A DNA stretch of 64,000 bases from Desulfobacula sp. (lineage in GTDB: Bacteria > Desulfobacterota > Desulfobacteria > Desulfobacterales > Desulfobacteraceae), in the NCBI GenBank assembly GCA_023701135.1, contig JAMPXP010000004.1:62001-126000 (forward strand), written 5' to 3'. Positions 7,973-57,570 of the stretch are shown here, in pieces (position 1 is the first letter of the stretch; every line of letters begins with the position of its first letter). The position numbers and the translations under genes were made by a program. The notes beneath the pieces were generated by a model. It was not told the origin of the DNA and searched no databases. It saw only the letters and a list, made by a program, of their open reading frames with translations.

Positions 7973-9498
7973 AAAAGGTCGGGTTTTCTGATCTTGCCCA
8001 GGGAGGTCCGGGGAAATTCGGTCTTAAAGGTCACCCGTTTCGGCCATTTGTATTTGGCCAGCCTGCCTTGACACTGGGCAATGACATCCTCCTCGGTGAG
8101 GGAAGCGCCGGGGGCCGGGATCACAAAGGCATGGCCGGTTTCGCCCCAGGTCTCGTCGGGCACCCCCTTGACGGCCACATCCTCGATATCCGGGTGAAGC
8201 TTGAGAATTTTTTCCACCTCGGCCGGGTACACGTTTTCCCCGCCGGAAATATACATGTCCCCGGCCCTGCCCACCAGATAGAAGAATCCGTCCTCATCCA
8301 TGCGGGCCAGGTCACCGGTATGAAGATACCCGTTTTTAATGGTTTCTTCGGTCTTGACCGGGTCCTGCCAGTATTCCTTCATCATGATGGAGCCCCGGAC
8401 CACGATCTCCCCGATTTCACCGGGCCTGGCCTTTTTTCCCCTTTCATCCAGGATGGAGACTTCGGCGTGGAAAACGGGCCGGCCTACGGTTCCGGGTTTT
8501 TTCAGGGGATCATCCTCGGAGGCCCAGAGCAGGATGGAGGTTTCCGTCTGGCCCATGATCTGCCTGAAGGCAAGCCCTGCCTCCCGGCATTTTTTGATCA
8601 GGTCTTCGGTGAGTTTTTCCCCGCCCCCGGCACAGACCCTTAAGGATGAAATATCACTTCTTTTTTCCGGGGGAACCTTGAGCAGTTCCCGGTACACTGT
8701 CGGAACCCCCAGGAATTTGGTCACCTTATGGGCTTCGATATCCCGGTAGATCCGGACCGGATCGAATTTTTTGTGCAGGACAATGGTGGCGCCCTTGTAG
8801 AAAATCGGGGCCGCCTGGATAAAAAGGCCCCCCGAATGAAAGAGAGGCAGGAAGATCAGCATGATATCGCTGGAATGCAATTTAAAGAAGATATCGGCAT
8901 TGAGGCAGTTGAAAAAGGTTTTCCGATGGGAAAGGACAGCTCCCTTGGGCTGGCCCGTGGTGCCGGAGGTGTACATGATGACCTGGGGCTCTTCAGGGTC
9001 GGCGGGCCCCAGGGACCGGGTCAGAAAAGCCCGCTGGCCGTCGAACCGCTCCGTTTCCCAGGTAAAATCAAATACCCTGGAACCGGATGTTGCCTTGCCC
9101 GCCGCCGCCACCATGAGGGGCGGCAGGTAGCTGGACAGCTCAAGGGCGTTCACCACCTCGGCCACCTCTTCCCCATGGACAAAGAGCCGGGGCCGGCAGT
9201 TTTTGATGAAATAATCCAGCTCCACCGGCGTAATCCTGAAATTGATGGGCACAAAGATGGCGCCCAGCCTGGCGCAGGCCAGGAACAGGTCGAAAAATTC
9301 CAGGCCGTTGCCCAGCATGACGGCCACGCGGTCGCCCTTTTCAATGCCGATGGACTGGAGCCAGCAACTGGTCCGGTCCGCCCGGCGGCAGAGTTCGGCA
9401 TAGGAAATGGTCCGGCCCTCAAACAGGATGGCCGGTTTTTCAGGGCTCAATTCAGCCCATCGCTGCACCCACCAGGCAATATTCATGGATTTGATCAT
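7969..9498 (-). CDS. Acyl-CoA synthetase (AMP-forming, long/medium-chain type)
   Basis: Activates a carboxylic acid to its CoA thioester through an acyl-adenylate. The 509 residues have the AMP-binding P-loop [18 protein letters not shown] (about 172-189), the [20 protein letters not shown] hinge region (about 390-410) and a C-terminal domain ending GKIRKPDLF with the catalytic lysine. The ATG has AGGGGA at a good distance. It has no signal peptide. It follows a small ATC-hydrolase-like gene on the same strand 91 bases upstream. The substrate may be a fatty or an aromatic acid; proximity to the dehalogenase homologue makes a haloacid conceivable, but that is speculation. Confidence 0.88.
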
Positions 9499-35067: not shown

Positions 35068-35247
35068 TCAAGATTTATCCTTATACAAATCATAATCCGG
35101 ATAATATTTTTTGGCGCAGTCCTGACAGATGCCGTGGCTGAATTTGGCTTCAGAGTGCTGGTCAATATAGACCTCAATCTGGTTCCAATACCCTTTGTCG
35201 TCCCGGATCTTTTTGCAGTGGGAGCAGATGGGCAAAAGCCCGCTCAA
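35068..35247 (-). repeat. CxxC...CxxC module, copy 1
   Basis: The 59-codon tail of the REC-GAF gene. At DNA and protein level it is nearly the same as copies at 44898-45086 and 56422-56598; residues CSHCKKIRDDKGYWNQIEVY are identical in all three. Confidence 0.8.
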
Positions 35248-36261
35248 CTGTTTCACATTGGCCAGGGCCTGCCGGAGTTCCCGGATAAGATCGGCATTCT
35301 GCTTTTCAGCCGTATCCCGCTGATCTAAATGGCGGCTGTTTTGAAGGGCGATGGCGGCCAGCTCGCCGAATCCGCCGGCGATTCGGGCATCATTCTCCGT
35401 AAAATCCGTGCTCTTATTGGCAAGCCCCATGATGCCCACGGTTTTCCCTTCTATCACCAGGGGGGCGAACAGGACATTGCCGAGCCATACATGGCCTTCG
35501 GGCATGAATTTGACCCAGTCGGAATTCATAAAATCATTGTCATAAACGGTGGAATTGGTCCGGTAAGCGGTTTCCCTCAATCCCCGGATGGGCATGGGCA
35601 GTTCCGGATCAACCGTGCAGGGCAGTCCTCCGGCTTCCAGAAACAATACCTCGTTTTCATCCCCGGCCTCGGACAGCAGGGCAATATAACCCGAGGTGGC
35701 CCCAATGATCTCGGAACAGATATCAAACACATGCCGGGCCGTTGTCTTAAAATCCGTGGCCGCCAGGACAGCCCTGGCGCCCCTTAACAATCCCCTGATC
35801 TCGTTCTCCCGGATTCTGGATTCGTTCAGGAGATTCTGAAGCGTGGATCTGGCCGTTTCCAGATGGGCCTTCAACTGATGCCGTTCCATGGCATAGCGCA
35901 GGGTCCGGGTGATGGCGGCAACCGAGGGTTCCCCCTTATGGATATAGTCCTGGGCCCCTTTTTGAATGGCTGAAAGGGACAGCTCAAGGTCCTTGGCCCC
36001 GGATATGATGATGACCGGAATATTGGGAAAGCCTTCATGAAAGGACAGAAAGGTGCTGAGCCCGACACTGTCCGGCAGATGAAGGTCCAGGATGGCCGCA
36101 TGAATCATATTTTCTTTGGCCAGGGCCAGGGCTTTTTCCAGCCGGTCGGCATGAAAAATTGAGATGGCCATGTCTTCCGAGGATTCAAGAACTTCTTTTA
36201 ACAGCAAAAAATCATCGGGGCTGTCTTCCAGAATCAGGATATGGATTTCTTGACGCGCCAT
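35068..36261 (-). CDS. REC-GAF protein with C-terminal CxxC...CxxC module
   Basis: A 397-residue signalling protein. REC is at about 5-122 (ILEDSPDD, phospho-Asp in AAILDLHLPDSVG, Ser in IIISGAKD, Lys in YIHKGE), a coiled coil to about 160, GAF at about 165-310 (PLVIEGKTVGIMGLANKS), a second coiled coil, then a 59-residue tail with ICSHCKKIRDDKGYWNQIE and GICQDCAKKYYPD. The tail's four cysteines could bind zinc or act as a redox switch. The start overlaps the preceding receiver gene by one base (TAATG). The output is unknown: it has neither kinase nor DNA-binding domain. Confidence 0.88.
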   Translation of the reverse strand: MARQEIHILILEDSPDDFLLLKEVLESSEDMAISIFHADRLEKALALAKENMIHAAILDLHLPDSVGLSTFLSFHEGFPNIPVIIISGAKDLELSLSAIQKGAQDYIHKGEPSVAAITRTLRYAMERHQLKAHLETARSTLQNLLNESRIRENEIRGLLRGARAVLAATDFKTTARHVFDICSEIIGATSGYIALLSEAGDENEVLFLEAGGLPCTVDPELPMPIRGLRETAYRTNSTVYDNDFMNSDWVKFMPEGHVWLGNVLFAPLVIEGKTVGIMGLANKSTDFTENDARIAGGFGELAAIALQNSRHLDQRDTAEKQNADLIRELRQALANVKQLSGLLPICSHCKKIRDDKGYWNQIEVYIDQHSEAKFSHGICQDCAKKYYPDYDLYKDKS

Positions 36262-38791: not shown

Positions 38792-41217
38792 GATGCTGTT
38801 CCCCTCCCATCCATCAGGGACCGGTTCAATGCCGTTTTCAGTTCAGCCGTTGAATAGGGTTTATGCAAAAAGGCATTGGGCTGCTCGGGCGCATCCCGGT
38901 TTAGGGCCAAGGCTTCTTCGTAACCGCTGGCCAGGATAACCGGCAAACCGGGCTGGATCGTTCGCAAGGCCGCAAGGGTTTCCCATCCGTCCAACCCCGG
39001 CATGGTGAGATCGGTGATCACACAACAGACCTCGCCCTGGTGTTGGCGAAAAAGGTCCAGGGCCTCGGCCCCGCCGGCTGCAGACAGGATTGAAAACCCC
39101 AGACGTTCCAGCAGGGTCTCCCCCATTTTCCGGACCGGTTCCTGGTCATCCACCATCAGGACAAGGCCGCTGTATTCAGCTTCCCTGGTCCTGGCGGCCC
39201 TATCGGATGCTTCGGGAGAGGCCTCGTTAAAAACCGGCAGCAATATGCGAAAGGTGCTTCCCTGATCCTTGATGCTCTCCACCTGGACGGCTCCCTGCCA
39301 TGCTTTAACAAGACCCAGAACCACGGACAGGCCAAGGCCCCGGCCCGTGAATTTGGTCGTAAAAAAAGGATCAAACAGCTTGGGCATTTCCGGTTGAGGG
39401 ATGCCGCATCCCGTGTCCGCCACCGTCAGGCAGGCGTAGGTGTCGTCAACCGGTTTCCAGGTCATGGGCGCAATCAAGCCCCCGGGGATGTCCGCCGCCG
39501 GGAGGATTCCCACCGAAAGTCTGACCCTGCCCTTACGGCTGCCCATGGCTTCCGTACCGTTGGTGATCAAATGGTTCAGGATGATCCGGATCTGGTTGGC
39601 ATTGGCAAAGACCATGGGACCTGACAACATGACGTCCGTTTCCAGGACAACACCTTTGGGGATGAGGGCCTGGACAATGGGCAGATGCCGGCGGACCAGC
39701 CGGGAAAGGTCCAGGGCCTCGCTTTTATCGATTCCCTGGCCGATATAGGTCAGCATGAGCCCGCTGATCTCCGATGACCTTCTGGCCGCCTTCAGGGCTG
39801 CCAGAAGACAATTTCGGATTCCGGGGGCCTCTTGCAGATCCTCCAGTGCAATCTCCAGATTGCCCAGAACCACCGTAAGCTGGTTGTTAAAATGATGGGC
39901 CACGGCGCCGGCCATGCGGGACAGGCTTTCGGTCTTACGCAGGTGGTGGGATTGTTCATCGGCCTGTTTTCGCTCATTGGTATCAATGATAAATCCTTCC
40001 AAGCCGATGACTTCGCCGTCCTGCACGACAGGATGGGCGGAAAAGCTATGGTATCCGATGGAGCCGTCCCTGCATTTCCGGGTAAACTCCCCGGTGGCAA
40101 TGGCCTTTCCGCTGAAAAGCCTTTCCACATTCTGATCCGCGGCGCTGAGGTCCGATGACGCCTGGGTCAGGGTATAGGGCCGTCCAATGACCTCATCGGC
40201 CGAATCATAGCCATGGATTTTCAGCCAGGCCTGATTCACCTGCTGAAAATTTCCCTGTTTATCGATGAAAAAATAACCGGCACTGGTATTTTCAATAATC
40301 CGGCGAAACCGTTCCTCCTTGTCCCGCAGGGCCTGCTCAATCTGCTTGTGTTCGGTCATATCATAGCCGATGGCGATGCGCCCGGCGATTTCACCCGGAA
40401 CGATTCCATAGGGATGGTAATGGAGCTGAACGAATCGCCTGCCCAGGCTCGGTGAATCCAACCAGATGCCAAAGGAGAAAGCCTCTCCTTTTAAGCAGCG
40501 GTCTGCCCTCTCCTTTACGATTTCCCTGAATTCTTTCGTCCCGATAATATCCTGCACATGCTTTCCGATGATCTCGGTTTTATCCAGATTCCAGAATCGC
40601 TCAAAACCGGGGTTGACCATCACATAGGTATTGTTCTCATCAATGACGGCCATGGGTTCCGATATGGACGATACAATGGTTTTATATATATTGACCGAGG
40701 TTTCCGTCAGGGAATTTGTCAGTTCCCGGTTTTTCTCCAACATCATCTGATTTGTATATAGAATTTCAAGGTCGGACTGGATCATGCGCTGGAATTTCTG
40801 CATCAACCGCTCAAAGACATCTGAATAAACATTCTCCTTGTTGTCCAGAACACAGATGGTGCCAAAGGGGCTTCCGTCGGGCAAAAGAATGGGAAACCCG
40901 AGATAGGAAATCATATTCCATTTGATATCAGGGTTCTCTTTCCAGCGCTCATCCTTCAGGGCATTGGGAACCAGAAGCCTGTCCCGGCTTTTGATGACCG
41001 TCTCGCAATACAGGCCCGACCCCCAGACAGGCTCCCTATCTCCCGGATGATAGGGATTGCCGTTGCTGCGGCTGGACACAAACACTTCCATATACGGCTC
41101 CTGGAGCCGCATCACCAGGGCGGCGGGGATCTCAAAAATATGCGCCAGGATATCAACCATCTCCTGCCAGTCTTCCAGTTTGGCGTCCGGAACCTGGACC
41201 TGAATCTTATGTTGCAT
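38788..41217 (-). CDS. GAF-PAS-PAS hybrid histidine kinase with receiver (HHFNN clade)
   Basis: A soluble hybrid kinase of 809 residues. GAF is at about 10-160 (SYLGFPILLPDGSPFGTICVLDN), PAS domains at about 190-300 and 305-420, HisKA with VAHHFNNQLTVVLGNLE (about 440), HATPase with NHLITNGTEAM, VADTGCGIPQ and FTGRGLGLSVVLG, and a receiver at about 680-800 (CVITDLTMPGLDGWE). The ATG at 41217 is chosen because GGAGA stands five bases upstream; two in-frame ATGs further up have no such site. It overlaps the preceding hybrid gene by 11 bases. The kinase core pairs with that of the gene at 25300. Confidence 0.9.
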   Translation of the reverse strand: MQHKIQVQVPDAKLEDWQEMVDILAHIFEIPAALVMRLQEPYMEVFVSSRSNGNPYHPGDREPVWGSGLYCETVIKSRDRLLVPNALKDERWKENPDIKWNMISYLGFPILLPDGSPFGTICVLDNKENVYSDVFERLMQKFQRMIQSDLEILYTNQMMLEKNRELTNSLTETSVNIYKTIVSSISEPMAVIDENNTYVMVNPGFERFWNLDKTEIIGKHVQDIIGTKEFREIVKERADRCLKGEAFSFGIWLDSPSLGRRFVQLHYHPYGIVPGEIAGRIAIGYDMTEHKQIEQALRDKEERFRRIIENTSAGYFFIDKQGNFQQVNQAWLKIHGYDSADEVIGRPYTLTQASSDLSAADQNVERLFSGKAIATGEFTRKCRDGSIGYHSFSAHPVVQDGEVIGLEGFIIDTNERKQADEQSHHLRKTESLSRMAGAVAHHFNNQLTVVLGNLEIALEDLQEAPGIRNCLLAALKAARRSSEISGLMLTYIGQGIDKSEALDLSRLVRRHLPIVQALIPKGVVLETDVMLSGPMVFANANQIRIILNHLITNGTEAMGSRKGRVRLSVGILPAADIPGGLIAPMTWKPVDDTYACLTVADTGCGIPQPEMPKLFDPFFTTKFTGRGLGLSVVLGLVKAWQGAVQVESIKDQGSTFRILLPVFNEASPEASDRAARTREAEYSGLVLMVDDQEPVRKMGETLLERLGFSILSAAGGAEALDLFRQHQGEVCCVITDLTMPGLDGWETLAALRTIQPGLPVILASGYEEALALNRDAPEQPNAFLHKPYSTAELKTALNRSLMDGRGTAS

Positions 41218-44200
41218 TTTTGTCTCCATCCAGAACATCCCGTATTTTCAAGGCCAGATCCTTCATGATGATCGGTTTTAATACCAGTCCCCTGATGCCC
41301 AGGGATTTGATTCTCTCTTCCGTCAGGGTTTCGCTGAATCCGGTGCACAGAAGGACCGGAATATCCGGCCGGATGCGGATCAGTTCAACGGCCAGTTTAT
41401 CGCCGGACAGAGTGGGCATGGCCATGTCCGTAATGACCAGGTCAAATTGATCCGGGCCGGCCCTGAAGGTTTTCAGGGCTTCCATACTGCCGGAACAGGC
41501 GGTTGCATCATAGCCGAGGCGCTTCAGCATCTGTCGTTCCATGGCAATGATGGCCTCTTCATCATCCACCAGCAAGACTTTTTCCGATCCACCCGGCAGG
41601 GCCTCACGTGTCAACAATTCTTTTTTTTCAGCACCCTGGCCGACAACCGGCAGATAAACCCGGAATTCAGTCCCCCGCCCCGGCTCACTGGACACCTGAA
41701 CCGCCCCGTTCATGGCCTTTACAATCCCGTGAACCACGGACAGCCCCATTCCTGTTCCTTTTCCCTTTTCCTTGGTGGTAAAGAACGGCTCAAAGATTCG
41801 ATCCCGGATTTCCCGGGGAATTCCCGGGCCCGTATCGGCCACCGTGAGGCAGGCATAGACGCCGGGGGCCATATCCGGATAGACCGGATCCGGCCGGTTC
41901 CATCGGATTTGTTCGAGGCTGACCTTCAATTCCCCCCCACCCTCTTCCATGGCATGATAGGCATTGGTGGTCAGGTTCATAACGATCTGGTGGATATGGG
42001 TGGGGTCCGCCGTAACCGCACCGCAGCCGGGTTGGATGTTCTGAACCATGGCAATGCTGGTGGGGATGGTGGCTCGAATCAATTTCAGGGCCTCTTTGAC
42101 GATGGGCTGAAGCTTCATCATCTGTAATTCCGTCTCACCCTGCCTGGAAAACGAAAGGATCTGATGCACCAGATCCCTTGCCCGCAAGGCGCCGGCATAG
42201 ATCTCATTCAGGCTGCTGCGGACGGGACCATCCTCGGGAATATCGTCCATCAGCATCTCGGTATGGCCCACAATGGGGAAGAGAATATTATTAAAATCAT
42301 GGGCAATGCCGCCGGCCAGGGTGCCGATGGATTCCATCTTCTGGGCCTGATTCAAATGGGCCTGGAGTTTCATCTGCTCTGCTTCCGCCTGTTTGCTCGC
42401 GGTAATGTCCTGGAAGATACAGGCAAACCGATTGGGGACAGGTTGAAAGGCCCTTATCTCAAAATATTTGTTCAAATCAGCAGAATAATTCTCGAAAAAT
42501 ACCGGTTCTCCGGTAAGGGCTACCTTGCCGTAAGCCTCGATCCAGTGCAGCTCGGTACCGGGCAGAACCTCCAGAACCGTCCGGCCCTCAATATCCTCCG
42601 CCTTGAGGCCGGTCATCCGTTCAAAGGCCGGATTGACCTCGAGAAAACGATAATCCACCGGCTTTCCGGCCGGGTCGCAAAGAATTTCGTGCAGGGCAAA
42701 ACCGTCCAGCATTTCCTGGAACAGGGTCTTGTAATTCTGCTCTGCCCGGCGCTGGCTGGTGATATCACGGCTGAGCGACAGAACGGACTCCACCTTTCCC
42801 GAACTTTGCCCTTCGGGCACAAGGCGCCAGTTGTGGATAACGGGTCCTGTTTTTCCCTCAAACATGGATTCCGTCTCAAAGGGAGTACCGCTGTCAAACA
42901 CCTTCTGAATGGTCTCTTCCCAGAACCGGCACTGGTTCTCGGGGAATCCCAGTTCCCGGTGGGTCTTGCCGATGAACTGTTCCGCCTTAAGATCCACCAC
43001 CTGGCCCACGTTTTCAGAGACAAACAGATGCCGCCCTTCCCGGTCAAACCGCATCACCACGTCGGGCAAGCTTTGAATCAGGGCCCGGTGGATGCGCTCA
43101 CTCTCCAGGAGGGCCGATTCCGTCTTTTTAATTTGCGAAAGATCCCGGACCATACTGATCCAGCCGGCCCGCTCGCCGGAATCCGCTTTCATTTCCACCA
43201 CCGTGTGCTCCGAGGGGAAAATAGCACCGTCCTTTCGTTTCATTGAAAATTCAAACTGCCTGAGATGGCCTTGATGCTGAATCGAAGAAAACAATTGGGT
43301 TTGGAACCGCTCCAGATGGGAGCTGTCCACATGCAGTTTGTCCACCGGTTCCCCGATCAGGTCTTCTGGCGCATAGCCGAAAATATCAACGGCTGCCTGG
43401 TTACACTCCAGGACCATGGCAGGCACATCTGTGGTCAAAACAAAAATCGCATCAAACTGGCTGTCAAATACGTTTTTAAACCGCTCAACGGCCTCCCGGA
43501 CCTGTATCTCTGAAATTTTGCGTTCGGTAATATCCTGGGTAAACCCGATCCCCCGGACACATTCATCCGCCTCATTGAATTCAAGCTCCGCCTTTTCCCT
43601 CACCCATTTCACCTTGCCCTCCACAACCAGCCGATGCTCAATATCATAGGGTTTCTTGAGGAATGCCGCCTTCCATTTTTTGTCCACATAGGCTCTGTCA
43701 TCGGGGTGGACACAGTTCAGAAAGGTTTCATAGGAAAGCGGTGTTCCCGGGGCCAGCCCGAAAATTTTATAATTTTCTTGGGTCCAGGTCAGTTCATTTT
43801 TTCGGATATCCAGTTCCCAGGTCCCTATACATCCTATCTCCTGGGCTTTTTGCAGAAAATAGGCCTGCTTTTTCAAGGCGGCTTCGCCGGCCCGCAGGGC
43901 CGTTGTCTGGATCTGGAGCAGGTCACGGCTTTGTTTCAATTCACGGGTTTTAATGTTTACCATCCTTTTTGACAACCGGTTAAACCCCATCAAAAGAAGA
44001 GAAAGAACCGTGAGGACGAAAAATAATCCATAGACCCAGGTTGGAATGAACCGTTTTTGAATAGTCGCCTGCATGCCCGACGGCGTTATCCACACATCAT
44101 AGGCCCGGTGGTAAACCGAATGGACATCCGCTTTATATTTGGAAAAATAACGGTCCAGGGTTTCCACGACGGCAATCCCGGAAATTGGGTTTGAACCGTT

Positions 44201-44908
44201 GTTTTTTCCGACGGCAAACCGCAATTGGGTAGGGGCAAAAAAAATCTGGGTCCGGGTCAGGGGATGGGTGTCCAGAAACCGGAAGCTATAGAGATTGGTG
44301 AATACCCCGGCATCGGCGGCAGAGGCCTCCAAAGACTGCAAAACCGCTTCATAGTCTTCGTATTCCTGAAACCGGGCCGATATTCCGAATCCCTCCAGAA
44401 GGGTCTTCAGCTCTTTGTTGACCTGGGCCCCTTTCACCAGGCTGACGCTTTTGCCCTCAAGATCCAGGATGGTCTTAACAGGACTTTTTGGGGACGTGTA
44501 AATTTCCGCCCAGATGATAAAAAGGTGTTCCCTGGTAAACTCAAAAACTTTGGCCCGTTCATCTGAATAGGCAATGCCGGCAATCAGGTCAATTTCTCCA
44601 TTCTTCAACCGGGACAGGCATTGGTTAAAACTGCCGGAAACATAGGTGAGGGACCATTTTTCCTGCTTTGCCATATCCTCCAGGATGTCGATGAAAAACC
44701 CTTTGGCCTTTCCATCCGTATCCAGAAAGGCCAGGGGCTTGAAATCATAGATGCCCACCCTGACTTCATGAAGGGTATCCCCGGATGAGGCCGGTCCGGC
44801 ATGGACAAAAACGGCCAGGACCAGAACCGCCGCCATAATGCGGATAAGGCCCCTGCCGGCATTTAAAATTGGAAGTGCAACCGCTCTTTGTCCGGCCTCA
44901 TGTCTCAT
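41207..44908 (-). CDS. SBP_bac_3 hybrid kinase with four PAS domains and receiver
   Basis: A membrane hybrid kinase of about 1233 residues. A signal anchor lies at about 16-38, SBP_bac_3 sensor at about 42-275 ([29 protein letters not shown]), TM at about 300-325, four PAS domains at about 360-485, 490-620, 625-750 and 755-880, HisKA with [20 protein letters not shown] (about 905), HATPase ([33 protein letters not shown]) and a receiver ([14 protein letters not shown]). The start at 44908 has GGGGA at eight bases; the frame is open 44 codons further, but that is the preceding gene read out of frame. It overlaps that gene's stop by 11 bases. Confidence 0.9.
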
Positions 44909-45086
44909 GATTTGTATCCCCATATAAATCAAAGTCAGGATAATATTTTTTGGCGCATTCCTGACAGATGCTGTGGCTGAATTGGGCTTCAGAATGCTGG
45001 TCAATATAAACCTCAATCTGATTCCAATATCCTTTGTCATCCCGGATTTTTTTGCAGTGGGAGCAGATGGGCAGGAGCCCGGTCAA
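44898..45086 (-). repeat. CxxC...CxxC module, copy 2
   Basis: The 62-codon tail of the GAF-like gene, nearly identical to the copies at 35068-35247 and 56422-56598; the only changes in the core are in the SEAQFSHSICQEC stretch. Confidence 0.8.
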
Positions 45087-45629
45087 TTGTTTGACACTGG
45101 ACAAGGCGGCTTCAAGTTTTTCCTTTTCCTTTCTCAGGGTATTCTCAATCTCTTTGATCCGTTGGTATTGCCTGGCATTTTCAATGGCCAGACCGCAGAC
45201 CAGGACCATGGACAGGGTCAGGTTCAGATATCGTTCCCCATGCTCTGGAAATTTTAAATCATCAACCTCAAGAATGCCCAGGCCTTTGTCATTGTGCGAA
45301 ATCAACACCCGGAAGCCCTTGCCGGTTTGTGTCCATGAATATTGACCGTCGAATCCCGTCAACCGGTCTTTAATGGATTGGACCTCGTCCTTGGGCGGCA
45401 ATAAAGAATACACCCGGTCCGGCCGACCGTTTTCCAGAGAAACATAAACCAGTCTGCCGGGTGAAAAAAGGATGTCAAACACCTGAAGAACGCTTTCAAC
45501 GGCTTCCTGCTCTGTGCAGGAATGGGTGATGTTGGCCAGCAGGTCAAAGGCCATGGCATATTCAGACAATTGCTTTCTGATCATTGCCGGGTCGTTTTCC
45601 GGTTTGAGATCGTCAGGGATCTGCATCAT
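44898..45629 (-). CDS. GAF-like protein with C-terminal CxxC...CxxC module
   Basis: A 243-residue cytoplasmic protein. The N-terminal part (about 25-160) looks like a divergent GAF domain (RVLISHNDKGLGILEVDD, LVCGLAIENARQY), followed by a coiled coil (about 160-185) and the 62-residue module with ICSHCKKIRDDKGYWNQIE and SICQECAKKYYPD. It has no catalytic domain. It starts two bases after the URO-D-family gene and overlaps the next hybrid kinase, so it physically links the corrinoid/methyltransferase pair to the kinases. A role as a ligand or redox input to that kinase is inferred from position only. Confidence 0.8.
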   Translation of the reverse strand: MMQIPDDLKPENDPAMIRKQLSEYAMAFDLLANITHSCTEQEAVESVLQVFDILFSPGRLVYVSLENGRPDRVYSLLPPKDEVQSIKDRLTGFDGQYSWTQTGKGFRVLISHNDKGLGILEVDDLKFPEHGERYLNLTLSMVLVCGLAIENARQYQRIKEIENTLRKEKEKLEAALSSVKQLTGLLPICSHCKKIRDDKGYWNQIEVYIDQHSEAQFSHSICQECAKKYYPDFDLYGDTNHET

Positions 45630-45631
45630 GT

Positions 45632-46696
45632 TTAAATTCCCCTTTCATCCGTCACCCAATCCAGGGGATATCGCCCCCAGGTATGAACCGCCTCGGACAG
45701 CGCCATCAGGACCTCATCCGGCACCTGAAAGGGGATCTCCCCGTGATTGTCCGACAGGATAAAGCCTCCGCCGGCGCCTGCCCCGGAAAGGATGTGTTTG
45801 ACCTGAGCTTCGGCTTCCGCCGGAGTCCATCGGCACATTTCAATCCCGTTCAGATTTCCCAGCACTGTCAATTTGCCCTTGCAGGCGATCTTCATCTCCC
45901 TGATATTTTCCTGGCTGCTGACCCCGATGATGGCGGTTCCGGTTTTTGCAATGTCTGAAACAACCGGCAGACATCGGCCAGAGGCCATGTGTGTGGCCGT
46001 GGGACCCTTGATCCGCGCGAGGGTGCGTTTGGCAATCTCAAATCCGGTTTTCAGGTACAAATCTTTGGGGGTGATGGTGGTTGAGGATAAGGGATCAAAA
46101 TAACAGATGGCTGTTGCGCCGGCTTTTAATTGTGCATTTGCCCAGTTGACGCAAAACGCCTCGTTTATTTGCATGAGATCCCAAAACAAATCAGGCGCTT
46201 CAACCATCAAATCAAAATATCGATCAAAGCCCATCTGCATCACGGGCAGAGAAAAGGGGGACATGACCACGCCGATAATCGGGACTTCGTCTTTGGTTTT
46301 TTCTTTGAGCATCCGGGCCGACGCCAATACCTTTTCAAGGCAGGGAGTGTTTCCGATATCCGGTAGTTTTAGACGTTTGATATCCTGGAATTTTTTAATG
46401 AGAGGCTCGCCGGAGTTTGGAGGACCGTCGTCGCTATAGATCACCTCTCCCCCCCAGGCTTCCACCTCCAGCGGGGCATAATAAAAATTATAAATACAGT
46501 CACTCCGGTATTTGGCCCGCAATCTGAGCTGGCCCTCCACCACATGCCCGGGTTTTGAAAAATACCGGTTTATGGACAACCCCAGTTCCTTGGCCCCGTG
46601 CAGGGTAACCAGAAGAAAGAAAGGAACCCGATCCGGCTCCCGATGACCAAGGGTGGTCAGGGTGCGCTGCATGGAGGTCATTTGGACGGCATTCAT
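45632..46696 (-). CDS. URO-D-family methyltransferase homologue, atypical metal site
   Basis: A 354-residue TIM-barrel protein of the uroporphyrinogen decarboxylase superfamily, in the branch that includes MtaA/MtbA-type methylcobamide:thiol methyltransferases. The N-terminus has REPDRVPFF; the C-terminus has ILSDNHGEIPFQVPDEVL. In the methyltransferases zinc is held by an HxC motif and a later Cys; here the first site reads H236-M-A238 and the later one N-H318-G, so both cysteines are missing. It starts inside the stop of a corrinoid protein (ATGA), so the two work together, probably moving a methyl group to or from that corrinoid. It is unlikely to be a haem-pathway HemE. Confidence 0.82.
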   Translation of the reverse strand: MNAVQMTSMQRTLTTLGHREPDRVPFFLLVTLHGAKELGLSINRYFSKPGHVVEGQLRLRAKYRSDCIYNFYYAPLEVEAWGGEVIYSDDGPPNSGEPLIKKFQDIKRLKLPDIGNTPCLEKVLASARMLKEKTKDEVPIIGVVMSPFSLPVMQMGFDRYFDLMVEAPDLFWDLMQINEAFCVNWANAQLKAGATAICYFDPLSSTTITPKDLYLKTGFEIAKRTLARIKGPTATHMASGRCLPVVSDIAKTGTAIIGVSSQENIREMKIACKGKLTVLGNLNGIEMCRWTPAEAEAQVKHILSGAGAGGGFILSDNHGEIPFQVPDEVLMALSEAVHTWGRYPLDWVTDERGI

Positions 46697-47325
46697 ATTT
46701 TGCCTCCCATAATGGTTTTAATGACGGATATGACGTCGGATGCGGTTTTACACATGGCATCGGCGCCCACCGCTTCCCATAGCCGGTCATCAAACCGGAA
46801 GGGCGCTCCGCCCACAATCAGTTTGATATTAATACCGGAAGCCGTCAGTTTTTCTTTCAGGAGCTTTATCTTCAGGGCCGATGGAAGCATCAAAACCGAG
46901 ATTAAAAGAATCTCTATCTTCTCTTTTTGGATTCGTTGGAACAGATCATCCACCTCCATGACCCCGTAATCGGATAAATCAAAGCCGCCGGCCCTTAGAA
47001 CCGAATATACGATAATTTTCCCCAGTTTATGATGATCGCTGAGAACACAGATGGCCATCTTTGGCTGATCTTTTCTGTCGGGATCTCCGGGAGGAAGAAC
47101 CTCATCCACCAGGTTTTCACAAATCCTTCCCGCCATATAGACCTGGGACAGGGCAAGGGTTCCATCCTGCCATCCCGCACCGATCCGTTCAAGGGCAACC
47201 GCAACCACCTCTTCAACAAATTTCATGGGAGCAACCTTCTTGACCGTATTCTCTAAAATCCGCTTTGCAGCCAATCTGTCCAGAGACAGAAGGGCCTGCA
47301 TAAACTCATTGACAATCGTTTCCAT
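46693..47325 (-). CDS. Methyltransferase corrinoid protein (B12-binding)
   Basis: A 210-residue corrinoid carrier. The N-terminal helical cap (about 1-85, RIGAGWQDGTLALSQVYMAG) and the C-terminal Rossmann cobalamin domain are both complete. The base-off/His-on motif DxHxxG is D97-H-H99-K-L-G102, with the SVLML (about 142) and VGGAPF (about 174) loops following. It carries a methyl group on cobalt for a partner methyltransferase. The start overlaps the end of a six-PAS hybrid kinase by 20 bases and its stop overlaps the URO-D gene, so it is embedded in the signalling operon. No dedicated substrate methyltransferase (MttB, MtaB) is seen nearby. Confidence 0.9.
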   Translation of the reverse strand: METIVNEFMQALLSLDRLAAKRILENTVKKVAPMKFVEEVVAVALERIGAGWQDGTLALSQVYMAGRICENLVDEVLPPGDPDRKDQPKMAICVLSDHHKLGKIIVYSVLRAGGFDLSDYGVMEVDDLFQRIQKEKIEILLISVLMLPSALKIKLLKEKLTASGINIKLIVGGAPFRFDDRLWEAVGADAMCKTASDVISVIKTIMGGKI

Positions 47326-50300
47326 AATTTCCTTTATTTTCTATATCCAAGACCTCCCGCAATTTATCGGCAAGGTTATTCATTGAAAAAGGCTTCTGGA
47401 TAAAGGCGACGCCTTCATCCAGAACTCCCTGGTGGGCGATGACATTGGCAGTATACCCGGACATGAACAGGCATCTGATGTCAGGATAAAGCGCCGTCAA
47501 CCGTCTTGCCAGATCCCGGCCGTTCATCCCGGGCATGACCACATCCGTCATGAGCAGATGGATTTTATCGGCAAGGCTTGCAGCCATGTCAATGGCCTCG
47601 GCGGGTGTGGCTGCGGATAAAACCGAATATCCCTTGCGTTCGAGCATCATCCGGGTCAGGTTTAAAACAGCCGGTTCATCTTCCACCAGAAGGATGGTTT
47701 CGTTTCCACCCGGGACCGGTTTCTCCGTTTGGGTAACGGCAGATATCCGGCCATCATCAAAGAACCGGGGCAGATAAATCTTGAAGGTGGAACCCTGACC
47801 GGGTTCGCTGTAAACATTGATAAACCCGTTATTCTGTTTGACAATCCCATATATAGTCGCAAGTCCGAGTCCGGTGCCCTTGCCCGTTTCCTTTGTGGTA
47901 AAAAAGGGCTCAAACAAATTGTTCAGAGTTTCTTTGTCCATGCCGGACCCGTCATCACTGACACCCAACAGAACAAAATCACCCGGGATAAAACCGGTAT
48001 GGTCGCGGCAGTAGGCCTCATCAAAGCTGACCACCCCCGTTTCAATGGTGAGCTTTCCCACCCCTGCAATGGCATCCCGCGCATTCACGCAAAGATTGAT
48101 CAGGATCTGGTCGATCTGGGAAGGGTCCATCTTCACCGCCCACAAATTTTTAGCAGGTTTCCAGAGAAGATCAATATCTTCCCCGATAAGCCTTTGCAGC
48201 ATGTTGATCATCTGCTTGACGGTCGGGTTCAAATTGAGGATTTTAGGCTCTATGATCTGTTTTCTGGCAAAGGTCAGCAATTGTTTGGTCAGATCCGCCG
48301 ACCGTTGCGCTGCCGTTTGGATCTCCTTCAGGTCTGAACCAATGCCGCTATTTTCTTCGACCCGTTCCAGGGCCAGTTCTGTATGTCCCAGGATGACCCC
48401 CAGCATATTGTTGAAATCATGGGCCACGCCGCCGGCCAGACGGCCCACGGATTCCATTTTCCGGGCCTGGAGGAGCTGGGCCCGGAGTTTTTCTTTTTCC
48501 AATTCAGCCTGTTTCTCGCCCGTAAGATCACGGAATTCAACCGTTCTTACCGGTTTTCCTTTATAGGGCACATTGCGCGCTTCCAGTCGCATGGGAAATT
48601 CTTCCCCGTTTTTACGCAATCCCATGGCTTCATAGGGTTTTTCATAGCCTGATACAATGTTGTCCATGACAGCAGGTCTGGATTTTTCTGCGATCAGCAG
48701 CAATCCGTTCATTCCGATTAATTCATCCATAGAATAGCCGGTCATTTCCGACAAACCCTGATTGCACTCGAGGATCATCCCCTTGTCATGGATGCAGATA
48801 CCGCCGAAAGAAGCATTGTGAAGCGCTTTGAAACGGGCTTCGCTCTCCTGCAGATCCCTTTGCTGATTTTTTTCATTGGTGACATCGTTATAGATGGTCA
48901 CGATCTCACCTGAGGGTAATTTGAAAATATGATTTTCATAATAATTTGAAAACCTGTCATCTTGGTATATCCTGACCGGATAATACTCAGGGATGCCGGT
49001 TTCCCAGACTTTTTTCATGACGGGAATCAATCCGAAGTCATCAATATTGGGCCTCAGGTCAAAAAGGCTTCTGCCCATGACTTCTTCCGGCTTTTTCCCT
49101 TCCATTTCAAGGCTTTTCCGGTTAAATTCCCGGATAATATAATCCGTCCCCTTTGACCCGTCATTTCTGACTTCATAAACAGCAGAACCACTGGTCATAT
49201 GATCAAATAATCCCCGGAACAGCGCCTCTTTTTCGATCAGCGCCTTTTCAGCCCGCTTACGTTCGGTAATGTCCTGATAATTCCCTAGAAGTCCCTGTAT
49301 ATCCGGATCATTGAAAAGATTGATTCCCGTGAATTCTATCCATTTGTAGCTGCCGTCTTTACAACGATACCTGCATTCCATCGTCGCCACGGCATCCGGC
49401 GTGCGCATGATCTTTTCAAAAAACTTCCGGGTGAATTCTATATCATCGGGATGTACATTATTCCAAGTGCTTTCCCCGACAACATCTTCGGGTTTCCAGC
49501 CAAATATTTTTTCGATATTCGGGCTTTTGTATCTATTGATGCCGTTCTGATCTATGATGACAATGACATCCCCGATGTTCGCCACCATTTTGCCGTGCCT
49601 GGCGTCGCTTTTTCTCAAGGTCTCATTTGCCTGTCTGCGCTCGGTGATGTCTTGGGCAGCGCCCCAGAGTTCCACTGTTTTACCTGCCGGATCAACAATG
49701 GCCTCACCCTGAACCCACAACCATCCATTGCTTCCGTCTTTTCTTACGGTTTCCAGTTCCAGCGTGTAAGGAATTCCGGTCTCCCTGGTATGGGCCAAAG
49801 CCGTGGACAGCCTCTCCCAGCTTTCAGGGGTAAACAGTTTCATATGCTCGGTATAGGGCGGAGGGGGAAGTGATGGATCGAATCCATACATATTGTAGAG
49901 TTCTTCCGTCCAAACAACCTGATTGGTTGCCGCGTCCAGACGCCAACTGCCGACATGGGCAATCCGCTGAGATTCTCTCAGATCCTTCTCGTTCCTTCGC
50001 AGCGCGTCCTCGGCCTGTTTGCGCTCAGTGATATCATGAATTATTGAGAACAGTAGAATACGATTTTGAATTTCTATGGGTGTTGAATGAACTTCCACAT
50101 GACGAATCTGCCCATCTGCCATTAAGTGTCTGAATTTGAACCTGTTGATCTCTTTGTGCAACGCGCGATGCATCTCTTTTTCAATTTCTGCCGGTGATGA
50201 CATATTGAGTTGGTGAATTTTCATCTCTCGCATTGTTTCGAGAGGATATCCATAAAATTGAACGGCAGCATGGTTGGCATTAATAATCAGACCTGTTTCA

Positions 50301-50836
50301 GAGTCAATAAGCAGCATCACTGCACTGTGATTATTAAACATCCCTCGGAACAGAGTTTCGCTTTCGATCAGCTTGCCTTGTATTTTTTTTAACTCGGTAA
50401 TATCCTGAAAAACTGAAAGGGTCGCCGGACTGCCATTGTGCGTGATTCGAACGGTATTCGCCAACACGGTCATTTCCCGGGCATCTTGCCCCATAAGGAC
50501 GAGCTCCTTAGGCTCGCCCATTTCTCCGGTCTCCAGAACCCGGCGCCGTCTCTGATACCCAAGATCGATGAAATCAGGATGAATCCATTTTCCTGGAGTG
50601 GTTCCGATGATCTCGCCCTCATCCCCAACACCAAAAAAATTCAGAACGGCTGGATTTACAAAAACGATCTTCTCTTCCTGTGTCACCAAAAAGGGTAAAG
50701 GCGAAAAATGGATCAGAGATCGATATCGCTCCTCACTCTCCAGTAAAACGCCTTTTATTTGTTTGAGTTCGAATTCAGTCTTTTGAAACTCCTGAATCCG
50801 TCTTTCCAGTTCTTCATATGTGGGTTTTTCAGCCAT
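47306..50836 (-). CDS. Six-PAS hybrid histidine kinase with receiver
   Basis: A soluble hybrid kinase of 1176 residues. A short N-terminal coiled coil (KPTYEELERRIQEF) precedes six PAS domains at about 30-155, 156-275, 290-405, 410-530, 535-665 and 670-790. HisKA with [19 protein letters not shown], HATPase ([30 protein letters not shown]) and a receiver ([14 protein letters not shown]) follow. AAAGGGG supports the start. The fourth PAS and the whole cassette are close copies of those in the gene at 31522. Its 3' end overlaps the corrinoid gene, so it is the first kinase upstream of the corrinoid/URO-D pair. A 200-base gap with a GGDEF remnant separates it from the gene above. Confidence 0.93.
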   Translation of the reverse strand: MAEKPTYEELERRIQEFQKTEFELKQIKGVLLESEERYRSLIHFSPLPFLVTQEEKIVFVNPAVLNFFGVGDEGEIIGTTPGKWIHPDFIDLGYQRRRRVLETGEMGEPKELVLMGQDAREMTVLANTVRITHNGSPATLSVFQDITELKKIQGKLIESETLFRGMFNNHSAVMLLIDSETGLIINANHAAVQFYGYPLETMREMKIHQLNMSSPAEIEKEMHRALHKEINRFKFRHLMADGQIRHVEVHSTPIEIQNRILLFSIIHDITERKQAEDALRRNEKDLRESQRIAHVGSWRLDAATNQVVWTEELYNMYGFDPSLPPPPYTEHMKLFTPESWERLSTALAHTRETGIPYTLELETVRKDGSNGWLWVQGEAIVDPAGKTVELWGAAQDITERRQANETLRKSDARHGKMVANIGDVIVIIDQNGINRYKSPNIEKIFGWKPEDVVGESTWNNVHPDDIEFTRKFFEKIMRTPDAVATMECRYRCKDGSYKWIEFTGINLFNDPDIQGLLGNYQDITERKRAEKALIEKEALFRGLFDHMTSGSAVYEVRNDGSKGTDYIIREFNRKSLEMEGKKPEEVMGRSLFDLRPNIDDFGLIPVMKKVWETGIPEYYPVRIYQDDRFSNYYENHIFKLPSGEIVTIYNDVTNEKNQQRDLQESEARFKALHNASFGGICIHDKGMILECNQGLSEMTGYSMDELIGMNGLLLIAEKSRPAVMDNIVSGYEKPYEAMGLRKNGEEFPMRLEARNVPYKGKPVRTVEFRDLTGEKQAELEKEKLRAQLLQARKMESVGRLAGGVAHDFNNMLGVILGHTELALERVEENSGIGSDLKEIQTAAQRSADLTKQLLTFARKQIIEPKILNLNPTVKQMINMLQRLIGEDIDLLWKPAKNLWAVKMDPSQIDQILINLCVNARDAIAGVGKLTIETGVVSFDEAYCRDHTGFIPGDFVLLGVSDDGSGMDKETLNNLFEPFFTTKETGKGTGLGLATIYGIVKQNNGFINVYSEPGQGSTFKIYLPRFFDDGRISAVTQTEKPVPGGNETILLVEDEPAVLNLTRMMLERKGYSVLSAATPAEAIDMAASLADKIHLLMTDVVMPGMNGRDLARRLTALYPDIRCLFMSGYTANVIAHQGVLDEGVAFIQKPFSMNNLADKLREVLDIENKGNYGNDCQ

Positions 50837-56421: not shown

Positions 56422-56598
56422 TTATTTCTCTCCATATAAATCAAAATCCGGATAATATTCTTTGGCACAGTCCTGACAGATGCCGTGGCTGAACCTGGCT
56501 TCAGAATGCTGATCAATATAAACCTCGATCTGATTCCAGTATCCTTTGTCATCCCGGATTTTTTTGCAGTGGGAGCAGATGGGCAAAAGACCGGTTAA
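56422..56598 (-). repeat. CxxC...CxxC module, copy 3
   Basis: The 58-codon tail of the RsbRD-like/PAS gene, matching the copies at 35068-35247 and 44898-45086 almost base for base in the core. Confidence 0.8.
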
Positions 56599-57570
56599 TT
56601 GTTTGACATTGGCAAGGGCCTGTTTCAATGAGGTGATATCCTCCAGGATAATAATGGTTCCTTGAAATTTACCGCTGATATCTAAATTTCTAGATAATTT
56701 GACCCTGAATATCATATCCTGATCATGATACGAAAAGATCTTTTCAAACATCTTGGATTCAAGATTCTTTTCATGGAAGTCTTGAACCTCTTCTTTAAGC
56801 CACGGCAAAAGATCAAACAATTGGATCCCGCCGGAATACCCCGGTCCGCCGTGGTTTTTCACCTGGTTGAGAAAGGGTTCAATCTCCGTCTTCCTATCTT
56901 TTGAGATCCGATAATATTGGGAGCCGGGAGACAAATCCTCCTTAAAAAGCGATACAGCCGCAAAATTCAAATTATCGATTTCATTCTTCCGGTTCAATAG
57001 GATGACCGGATTGGGAATGCTTTCAAAGATGGTGAGATATTTATTTTTTTCATTGGTCATCCGGCGATTGTTTGCCTGTAAATCCGCTATGGTTTTATTT
57101 CCCTTTTCCCCGGCCCACTCTACACAGAAACCGATCTCGATTTTGTCAAACATCCGGTTGACGGACAGTTCGCATGCCTGTTGATTCTCATAATGCGGGA
57201 CCTTCTTTCTGATCAGGTCCACATAGGCCTGACGGTAATATTTCATCAATCCCAGAAACATATCCAAGCTGATCCCCCGTTCTTTATGCCTTTGGGCCTC
57301 GATGATGCCGAACCGGGCGATGGGATCTTCTTTTAAATCCTCTTCCGGGGTCATCCCCGGGACATCTGTATAACGGGCAAGCCCCTCGGTCATGGATGCC
57401 GATAATCCGGATACGGACAGCCGCCAGGCTTCCTTCAGGGTTGATGTATAGGCGGTATAGCCCTGCCGTTTGGCATACATGAGGACGCGTTCCATCAACC
57501 AGTCTTCATTTGTCTCTAGGATGACCTTAATCATACCGGAAATTTTATATCCGCACCCATTTCTCTCCAT
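56422..57570 (-). CDS. RsbRD-like/PAS protein with CxxC...CxxC module
   Basis: A 382-residue cytoplasmic protein. The N-terminal ~150 residues are helical (LMERVLMYAKRQGY, HKERGISLDMFLGLMKYYRQ) and resemble the RsbRD N-terminal sensor fold. A PAS-like domain follows at about 180-320 (IFESIPNPVILLNRKNEI, GTIIILEDITSLKQA), then the 58-residue module with ICSHCKKIRDDKGYWNQIE and GICQDCAKEYYPD. It has no kinase or output domain. It starts five bases after the multi-TM hybrid stop with AGGTGA, and the next kinase begins directly after its end. It may be an adaptor between the two kinases. Confidence 0.82.
   Translation of the reverse strand: MERNGCGYKISGMIKVILETNEDWLMERVLMYAKRQGYTAYTSTLKEAWRLSVSGLSASMTEGLARYTDVPGMTPEEDLKEDPIARFGIIEAQRHKERGISLDMFLGLMKYYRQAYVDLIRKKVPHYENQQACELSVNRMFDKIEIGFCVEWAGEKGNKTIADLQANNRRMTNEKNKYLTIFESIPNPVILLNRKNEIDNLNFAAVSLFKEDLSPGSQYYRISKDRKTEIEPFLNQVKNHGGPGYSGGIQLFDLLPWLKEEVQDFHEKNLESKMFEKIFSYHDQDMIFRVKLSRNLDISGKFQGTIIILEDITSLKQALANVKQLTGLLPICSHCKKIRDDKGYWNQIEVYIDQHSEARFSHGICQDCAKEYYPDFDLYGEK

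Follow-up and report, generated by a model that had tools for sequence, protein, structure and literature searches.

Introduction

In the methyl-transfer systems of MtaA, MtbA and CmuA with MtaC or MtbC, a protein of the URO-D fold is encoded next to a separate corrinoid carrier with the motif DxHxxG. Here we analyze a gene pair of similar make-up in a stretch of 64,000 nucleotides from Desulfobacula sp. (GCA_023701135.1, contig JAMPXP010000004.1, positions 62,001 to 126,000), which is referred to as the window. The pair encodes a corrinoid (B12-binding) carrier of 210 residues, P0001 (46693-47325, minus strand), and a URO-D-superfamily methyltransferase homologue of 354 residues, P0002 (45632-46696, minus strand). 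A third gene, for the 243-residue GAF/CxxC protein P0003 (44898-45629, minus strand), follows. This module differs from the MtaA/MtbA/CmuA systems in that its proteins score far below the corresponding family cut-offs, in the absence of HxC...C, which we take to be the zinc-ligand motif of MtaA/CmuA methyltransferases, in the rarity of RamA-like activases and methyltransferase II (MT II) near it, and in its ties to signalling proteins.

Several other known systems share single traits with the module. CarH and the GGDEF protein 8j2y use a corrinoid-binding domain as a signalling input; to our knowledge, neither has a methyltransferase partner or a DUF1638 protein. MsmS of Methanosarcina is a sensor kinase linked to methyltransferase genes, but both MsmS and RdmS sense by haem or thiols within the kinase, and are not known to use a corrinoid carrier and a URO-D protein for this. 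RdmS, also from Methanosarcina, is likewise a sensor kinase with methyltransferase linkage (PMC11784639). The dichloromethane mec cassette, like the module, clusters a histidine kinase (MecA), a corrinoid protein (MecB) and URO-D proteins (MecC, MecE and MecI), and adds the MT II protein MecF; its kinase is of the PocR type and may regulate the catabolic cluster, whereas the module has DUF1638-GAF proteins, varying outputs and usually no MT II (PMC9768040). The type 1 mlp gene clusters show that MtaA-like proteins are widespread outside methanogens, and the main text of that paper, by Kountz and Balskus, does not contain the terms histidine kinase, sensor, GAF or DUF1638 (PMC10418091).

DUF1638 itself has been linked by genetic evidence, alongside RamA-like proteins, to the reactivation of the methionine synthase corrinoid, where its gene adjoins, and lies downstream of, that for the corrinoid-binding protein. 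In Phaeobacter inhibens, the DUF1638 gene is beside the corrinoid-binding subunit, its fitness pattern tracks that of the methionine synthase genes, and methionine rescues the mutants; the authors offer no specific proposal for its role (PMC5764234). A DUF1638 protein of Ruegeria pomeroyi, named together with RamA in a proteomics study, was more abundant on N-osmolytes (PMC12478193). The system of Price et al. 2018 is metabolic, whereas in the module DUF1638 is linked to a GAF protein and a signalling output, either by fusion or as a gene that precedes theirs (PMC5764234).

Results

The corrinoid protein, the URO-D protein and a third protein form a conserved gene unit

The pair and a third protein of the general form [DUF1638]-GAF-[output] constitute a conserved gene unit. 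A profile of 13 orthologues of P0002 retrieved 362 URO-D relatives from a species-level genome collection, and the best 80 loci were read with flanks of up to 10 kb. They represent 13 named phyla, one archaeal record included; four records without a phylum are not counted as one. Because the 80 loci were picked on URO-D similarity alone, their neighbouring genes are an independent outcome. The corrinoid gene is immediately upstream of the URO-D gene in all 80, with no more than 30 bases between the tblastn matches in 75 loci and a maximum of 152. Downstream, a protein with a P0003-type GAF domain is found in 76 of the 80, and three of the misses are contig ends (L080, L094 and L132). The third gene, assessed in 77 loci, overlaps the URO-D gene in 48 and starts within 100 bases of it in 26 more, under an early-start rule that favours overlap. 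The distances of the three proteins are also correlated (Mantel r 0.52-0.60, 53 loci), although shared ancestry alone yields some correlation. A chance arrangement was rejected, as was an artefact of a region rich in kinases, because the order recurs in different genomes at 80/80 on the corrinoid side and 76/80 on the GAF side. An earlier note on this DNA, made from the sequence alone, had proposed to ask whether the pair travels independently of kinases; the comparison did not refute the association, and ties the pair to signalling proteins across phyla. On the URO-D tree, the named rows nearest to the window are Desulfamplus and Desulfotignum. In a Candidatus Brocadia record (L101:1285-2985, plus strand), the corrinoid and URO-D proteins share a single reading frame of 566 codons.

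Searches in the reverse direction lead back to the same loci. Across 97 related genomes, the GAF profile gave 22 matches in 19 genomes, 20 of them within module loci: 18 adjoin a corrinoid/URO-D pair and two are further copies within these loci, while the last two are weak and partial (G023:C34 and G082). The second copies (G049:C5:88835-89308 and G057:C74:31982-32455) belong to proteins of about 350 residues. In a phylum sample of 395 genomes, three of four GAF matches adjoin the pair and one is weak and partial. The corrinoid profile gave 52 matches in 40 of the related genomes. Eighteen of the strongest 19 are beside URO-D and GAF genes, and the other is near the end of a contig of 3,068 bases; the next nine are in the nine distant DUF1638 loci described below, and 24 weaker ones remain. 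The URO-D profile matched eight genes in the 395 genomes, namely three full modules (the window, L147 and L149), four distant loci and an orphan. The orphan (L148:9709-10779, minus strand) is 58% identical to P0002, adjoins an ABC-transporter operon and has Asn in place of His318.

More distant members keep the theme in a different form. Among the relatives there are 12 distant URO-D genes, at 21-34% identity. Nine of these loci have, in order, genes for the corrinoid protein, the URO-D protein and a stand-alone DUF1638 protein, followed by a kinase (eight loci) or a GGDEF protein (one). The same order of corrinoid, URO-D and DUF1638 holds in the four distant loci of the phylum sample (L150-L153), three of which then have a hybrid kinase; the corrinoid gene of L152 is separate (8728-9399). 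In L153 (10419-12986, plus strand), DUF1638 is fused to GAF, PAS and HD_5 (HD-GYP-type) domains directly after the pair.

The third protein carries a GAF domain, usually DUF1638, and an exchangeable output

P0003 lacks both DUF1638 and a kinase domain, and a Pfam scan gives no match to it. Its GAF label (45114-45596, minus strand) rests on the model of a homologue, L075, which is 45% identical to P0003 over the GAF region; residues 201-352 of that model have a GAF fold (Z 15.8, rmsd, i.e., root-mean-square deviation, 2.1, 144 residues aligned to 3mf0). The GAF profile A6, of which P0003 is itself a row, matches it at 1.6e-59. This domain is homologous to the GAF domain of the DUF1638-GAF-output proteins, and P0003 is a reduced member of that larger protein. 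According to our own profiles, the third gene is a DUF1638-GAF fusion in 55 of the 80 loci, while three have DUF1638 and GAF as two genes, 18 have GAF without DUF1638, one has a DUF1638 cut by a contig end, and three have neither. In a Pfam scan of P0003 and 77 third proteins of the 80 loci, incomplete ones included (78 in all), 55 proteins matched DUF1638 (PF07796), 47 HATPase_c, 37 HisKA, 12 REC, eight GGDEF and one the Pfam GAF model. Neither PocR nor MEDS is among the 20 families matched. Local rules assigned a kinase to 46 of the 80 third proteins and GGDEF to eight, but overlooked those of L088 and L103, which are HisKA_2 kinases by Pfam.

The outputs thus range over histidine kinases, hybrid kinases, GGDEF and the CxxC tail, with HD_5 in the distant relative L153; HisKA, HATPase_c and REC, the parts of two-component systems, occur in the third proteins as well as in the kinases of the window. 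On the URO-D tree, where many branches are weak, with 34 of 75 open, there are at least 12 changes of output type and at least six in the presence of DUF1638. Outputs that can be exchanged between loci are what a sensory input would be expected to show. It is therefore this third gene, with its GAF protein fused to DUF1638 in 55 of 80 loci and usually carrying its own output, that is the conserved partner of the pair, and not the flanking multi-PAS kinases to which the earlier note had drawn attention. A Nitrospirota clade, mostly magnetotactic (L097, L105, L119 and L130), also has a third gene without DUF1638 and is separate from the clade of the window on the URO-D tree.

The fused DUF1638 domains have C10, C68 and C90 in 54, 52 and 52 of 55 proteins, respectively. 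Position 38 is Cys in 52 of these 55 and His in all 12 distant relatives. To judge from this pattern of conserved residues, the Cys/His set is probably a metal or Fe-S site. When a two-domain DUF1638-GAF model was compared with known structures, the matches listed were to the GAF part (residues 198-364); the DUF1638-GAF profile matches no PDB chain at E 0.1, a result that is uninformative as to the fold. In the genome of the window (G000; 4.8 Mb, 98.87% complete) DUF1638 has no match, either in P0003 or elsewhere.

In place of an output enzyme, P0003 ends in a CxxC tail (44901-45113, minus strand). Such a tail was recognised in 11 third proteins and seen in four others (L060, L062, L063 and L067). 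BLAST also matches the P0003 tail to the window at 56422-57570 (87% identity) and 35068-36261 (64% identity), both on the minus strand. Hence, the tail was rejected as a module-specific part, as it recurs in two other proteins of the window. The shared motif ICxxCKxIR... looks like a general end of signalling proteins in these bacteria.

The carrier and the URO-D protein are conserved but distinct from known methyltransferase components

P0001 is recognised by Pfam as a corrinoid carrier with B12-binding_2 (3e-10) and B12-binding (1e-15) domains. As the earlier note had read from the sequence, it has the cobalt-ligand motif D97-x-H99-x-x-G102 (codons 47020-47037, minus strand), and D97, H99 and G102 are invariant in all 65 aligned orthologues. 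The alignments took only rows with sufficiently long matches, i.e., 65 of 77 for the corrinoid protein (A7), 61 of 71 for the GAF profile (A6) and 55 for A5. P0001 falls below the substrate-specific NCBIfam cut-offs for MtbC (54.3 against 350 bits), MtaC (42.6 against 420) and MtgC (47.3 against 370). A CarH-like photoreceptor was considered for P0001 and rejected, with an NCBIfam score of 35.4 bits against a cut-off of 400. The N-terminal part of 8j2y matches P0001 according to a database listing.

P0002 belongs to Pfam URO-D (PF01208, 2e-51). The structure closest to its AlphaFold2 (AF2) model, which was built from 78 sequences and has a predicted local distance difference test score (pLDDT) of 94, is the methylcobalamin:coenzyme M methyltransferase 4ay8 (Z 39.9, rmsd 2.4, 333 residues aligned), together with 4ay7 (Z 39.8, rmsd 2.3). 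Yet P0002 reaches only 91.8 bits against the NCBIfam mtaA_cmuA cut-off of 235.4. The difference is apparent at the active site, for which residues were counted over 78 rows of the alignment A4, after exclusion of L060, L106 and L110, whose stretches contained a stop. The first zinc-ligand position of MtaA-type enzymes is retained, with His at position 236 in 77 of 78 rows (codons H236-A238 at 45983-45991, minus strand). The Cys ligand is absent: position 238 is Ala in 77 rows and Ser in one, position 239 is Ser in 72 and Ala in six, and no row has Cys at either. H318-G319-E320 (codons 45737-45745, minus strand), which lies at or beside the position where MtaA-type enzymes have their last Cys zinc ligand, is kept in 78 of 78 rows; a 305-residue URO-D protein of the same genome has a Cys in that column. 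D201, N178, Q189 and W290 are as invariant as H318 and E320. The HxC...C motif is present in the distant genes L058 and L059 and in a paralogue of the same genome, but absent from the P0002 family. That is, with H236 nearly and HGE fully invariant and the Cys residues gone, the site of P0002 is conserved, yet it is not the MtaA zinc site.

Catabolic methyl-transfer partners are rare at module loci

Two partners that mark a catabolic operon, MT II and a RamA-like activase, are not found at the window locus. The earlier note had reported no substrate methyltransferase or RamA-type activator there, and tblastn searches of the 64-kb window with an MT II, a RamA-like protein and two URO-D proteins from contig C28 of the same genome gave no match at E 1e-3. 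Over the 1.26 Mb of DNA in the 80 loci, a RamA-like gene was found in one (L119), MT II in one (L093) and an MtrH-like gene in none. The L119 match lies at the upstream extreme of its locus, and that in L093 belongs to a protein of some 815 residues, about 4 kb beyond the URO-D gene. These searches used few queries, namely single proteins of the same genome, then small profiles and an MtrH-like query. As positive controls, they found RamA-like genes in L144, L056 and L059, MT II only in L144, and MtrH-like genes in L058 and L059. The stretch read upstream of the URO-D gene exceeds 5 kb in 55 of the 80 loci, and that read downstream does so in 59.

Both partners do occur on contig C28 of the same organism, in a locus that looks like a canonical demethylase system (L144; G000:C28:11000-30000). 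It has genes for a URO-D enzyme, a corrinoid protein, a pterin-binding MT II and a RACo/RamA-like activase, as well as for another corrinoid protein and another URO-D protein, the latter with HxC...C. The C28 URO-D proteins are distant members of the P0002 superfamily, and a BLAST search of the genome with P0002 at E 0.001 returns only P0002 itself. As C28 provides a separate methyl-transfer locus, the pair in the window stands apart from it.

In the window, the reduced module is embedded among hybrid kinases

The signalling genes of the window locus form a run, all on the minus strand, which in order of transcription encodes a multi-PAS hybrid kinase, the corrinoid protein, the URO-D protein, the GAF/CxxC protein and a hybrid kinase with an SBP_bac_3 sensor. 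The first of these kinases (1176 residues; 47306-50836) matches several PAS models as well as HisKA, HATPase_c and REC in Pfam; the second (41207-44908) has PAS, HisKA, HATPase_c and REC together with SBP_bac_3. No PocR domain is present in the window kinases scanned with Pfam. The close packing given in the earlier note is borne out by the coordinates: the 1176-residue kinase overlaps the P0001 gene by 20 bases, the P0001 and P0002 genes overlap by four, and P0003 begins two bases after P0002. The P0003 gene also overlaps that of the SBP_bac_3 kinase, by 143 bases if the latter is read from its first ATG (45040) or by 11 from the ATG at 44908, which is the likelier start.

Of 14 loci whose third protein lacks an output of its own, eight have a kinase immediately ahead of the corrinoid gene, compared with five of 51 loci where the third protein has one (Fisher p 0.0005). 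This association serves as a hint only, because all eight loci are from Desulfotignum or Desulfamplus and because 15 of the 80 loci are excluded, 11 with unknown or incomplete output and four others without upstream sequence. L088 and L103, counted there as of unknown output, have HisKA_2 kinases and no upstream kinase. Thus, an upstream kinase is mainly a trait of close relatives of the window, and replacement of the fused kinase by a neighbouring one in this lineage is weakly suggested.

Some 70 bases ahead of the corrinoid gene, and still within the 3' end of the gene for the upstream kinase, is a stem of 14 pairs with a T-rich tail (47394-47424, minus strand), which could be a terminator or attenuator. 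Scans gave 24 promoter-like sites, compared with 14.9 (standard deviation, sd, 4.0) in shuffled sequence, and 24 terminator-like sites, compared with 17.3 (sd 4.4); neither was used as evidence.

Discussion

With the genes linked, DUF1638-GAF fused to outputs and catabolic partners rare, it is very probable that the module is a sensory input stage. More specifically, we favour, with modest confidence, the view that the corrinoid carrier and the URO-D protein are themselves the input stage of the signalling module. The earlier note had left two options, that the pair reports to the kinases or that the kinases control a one-carbon reaction. The former is favoured and the latter disfavoured, because RamA-like and MT II genes each occur in one of 80 loci and the outputs are exchanged. 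In the favoured mechanism, the URO-D protein would bind a methylated small molecule and transfer, or try to transfer, a methyl group to or from the corrinoid of the carrier. DUF1638 would then read the state of the carrier, i.e., methylated, Co(I) or oxidised Co(II), and this state would pass via the GAF domain to the output enzyme. Methyl transfer from a specific donor would be the signal. DUF1638 is a natural candidate for the reader, because in P. inhibens its gene is next to that of a corrinoid-binding subunit and shows a fitness pattern like that of the methionine synthase genes (PMC5764234). In the lineage of the window, which has neither DUF1638 nor the fused kinase any longer, it would fall to the GAF/CxxC protein to pass the state on to the hybrid kinases whose genes overlap the module.

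Several observations weigh against this view or narrow it. Catalysis by P0002 is not assured, because the MtaA-type Cys zinc ligands are absent, and the relay in the window itself cannot use a DUF1638 reader, as its genome has no DUF1638 match. In Candidatus Halobeggiatoa (L085) the pair is present but the third gene is genuinely lost, and a gene for an HsdM-type DNA methylase of restriction-modification comes next. L066 (= L034) has the pair and a GAF/CxxC gene with no adjoining kinase, and the orphan URO-D gene of L148 has neither corrinoid nor GAF neighbours. Three of the 12 distant URO-D genes (L056, L058 and L059) are without DUF1638; these look catabolic, with RamA-like genes in L056 and L059, MtrH in L058, and HxC...C in L058 and L059. 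Lastly, the loci read are the best 80 of 362, with the remaining 282 outside the sample, and single phylum labels may be wrong because they derive from record titles, mostly of metagenome bins with possible stray contigs.

The strongest competing explanation is that the module senses redox state or gases, in that the cobalt of the carrier is set by the redox conditions of the cell (O2, NO or sulfide) while the URO-D protein is a non-catalytic partner for binding or reactivation. This explanation is serious because the Cys ligands of the URO-D family are lost and the DUF1638 site, with C10, C/H38, C68 and C90 conserved, is rich in Cys. It is also in keeping with the link of DUF1638 to corrinoid reactivation (PMC5764234), and with the many hosts that, by record title, live at redox boundaries, such as Beggiatoa-type bacteria, magnetotactic Nitrospirota and sulfate reducers. 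However, many polar and aromatic residues of the URO-D protein are invariant in the alignment (H318, E320, D201, N178, Q189 and W290), which suggests a specific ligand, and on balance we regard a pure redox or gas sensor as unlikely.

It is less probable still, indeed rather improbable, that the pair works in one-carbon metabolism, as a catabolic or assimilatory enzyme whose expression the kinases regulate. Such an arrangement has been proposed for the mec cassette, where a PocR histidine kinase is beside a corrinoid protein and URO-D enzymes (PMC9768040), and the MT II and RamA-like genes on the other contig of the genome could act in trans. Nevertheless, the partners expected for such an enzyme are nearly absent from the 80 loci, and neither PocR nor MEDS occurs in the third proteins. 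Furthermore, GGDEF outputs, and HD_5 in the distant relative, act without a promoter at the locus, and the fusion of DUF1638-GAF to the output is a physical link rather than a regulatory one. Finally, it is very improbable that the ligand of the URO-D protein is a tetrapyrrole or a precursor of corrinoids, such that the module senses cobamide supply or repair instead of methyl donors: H318-G319 aligns with an HG of HemE proteins, HemE ranks next in fold (best Z 37.5, 3cyv) and HemE chains come first in a single-sequence search, but the best match of the family profile, as of the fold, is the methylcobalamin methyltransferase 4ay7/4ay8, and P0002 scores 57.3 bits against the NCBIfam hemE cut-off of 302.95.

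Returning to the corrinoid carrier and URO-D protein as the input stage, the earlier note had singled out this locus as a candidate undescribed system. We found no description of a module of corrinoid protein, URO-D protein, DUF1638, GAF and kinase in the open-access literature; the module is apparently undescribed and widely shared, and the window holds an unusual, reduced form of it. We consider it possible, though short of probable, that a corrinoid methyltransferase has been recruited as a general receptor, in which a reaction on an environmental compound would set the cobalt state, to be read by the DUF1638 metal site and GAF domain and passed on to two-component and cyclic-di-GMP outputs. 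If so, the module would represent a class of receptor that takes as its signal the reaction state of a cofactor borne by a separate carrier protein, and the role of DUF1638 would be to bind and read that corrinoid carrier. It would also be a widespread type of receptor that annotation splits into apparent metabolic enzymes and DUF1638, and it would account for some of the URO-D and corrinoid genes of anaerobes that have no known substrate.

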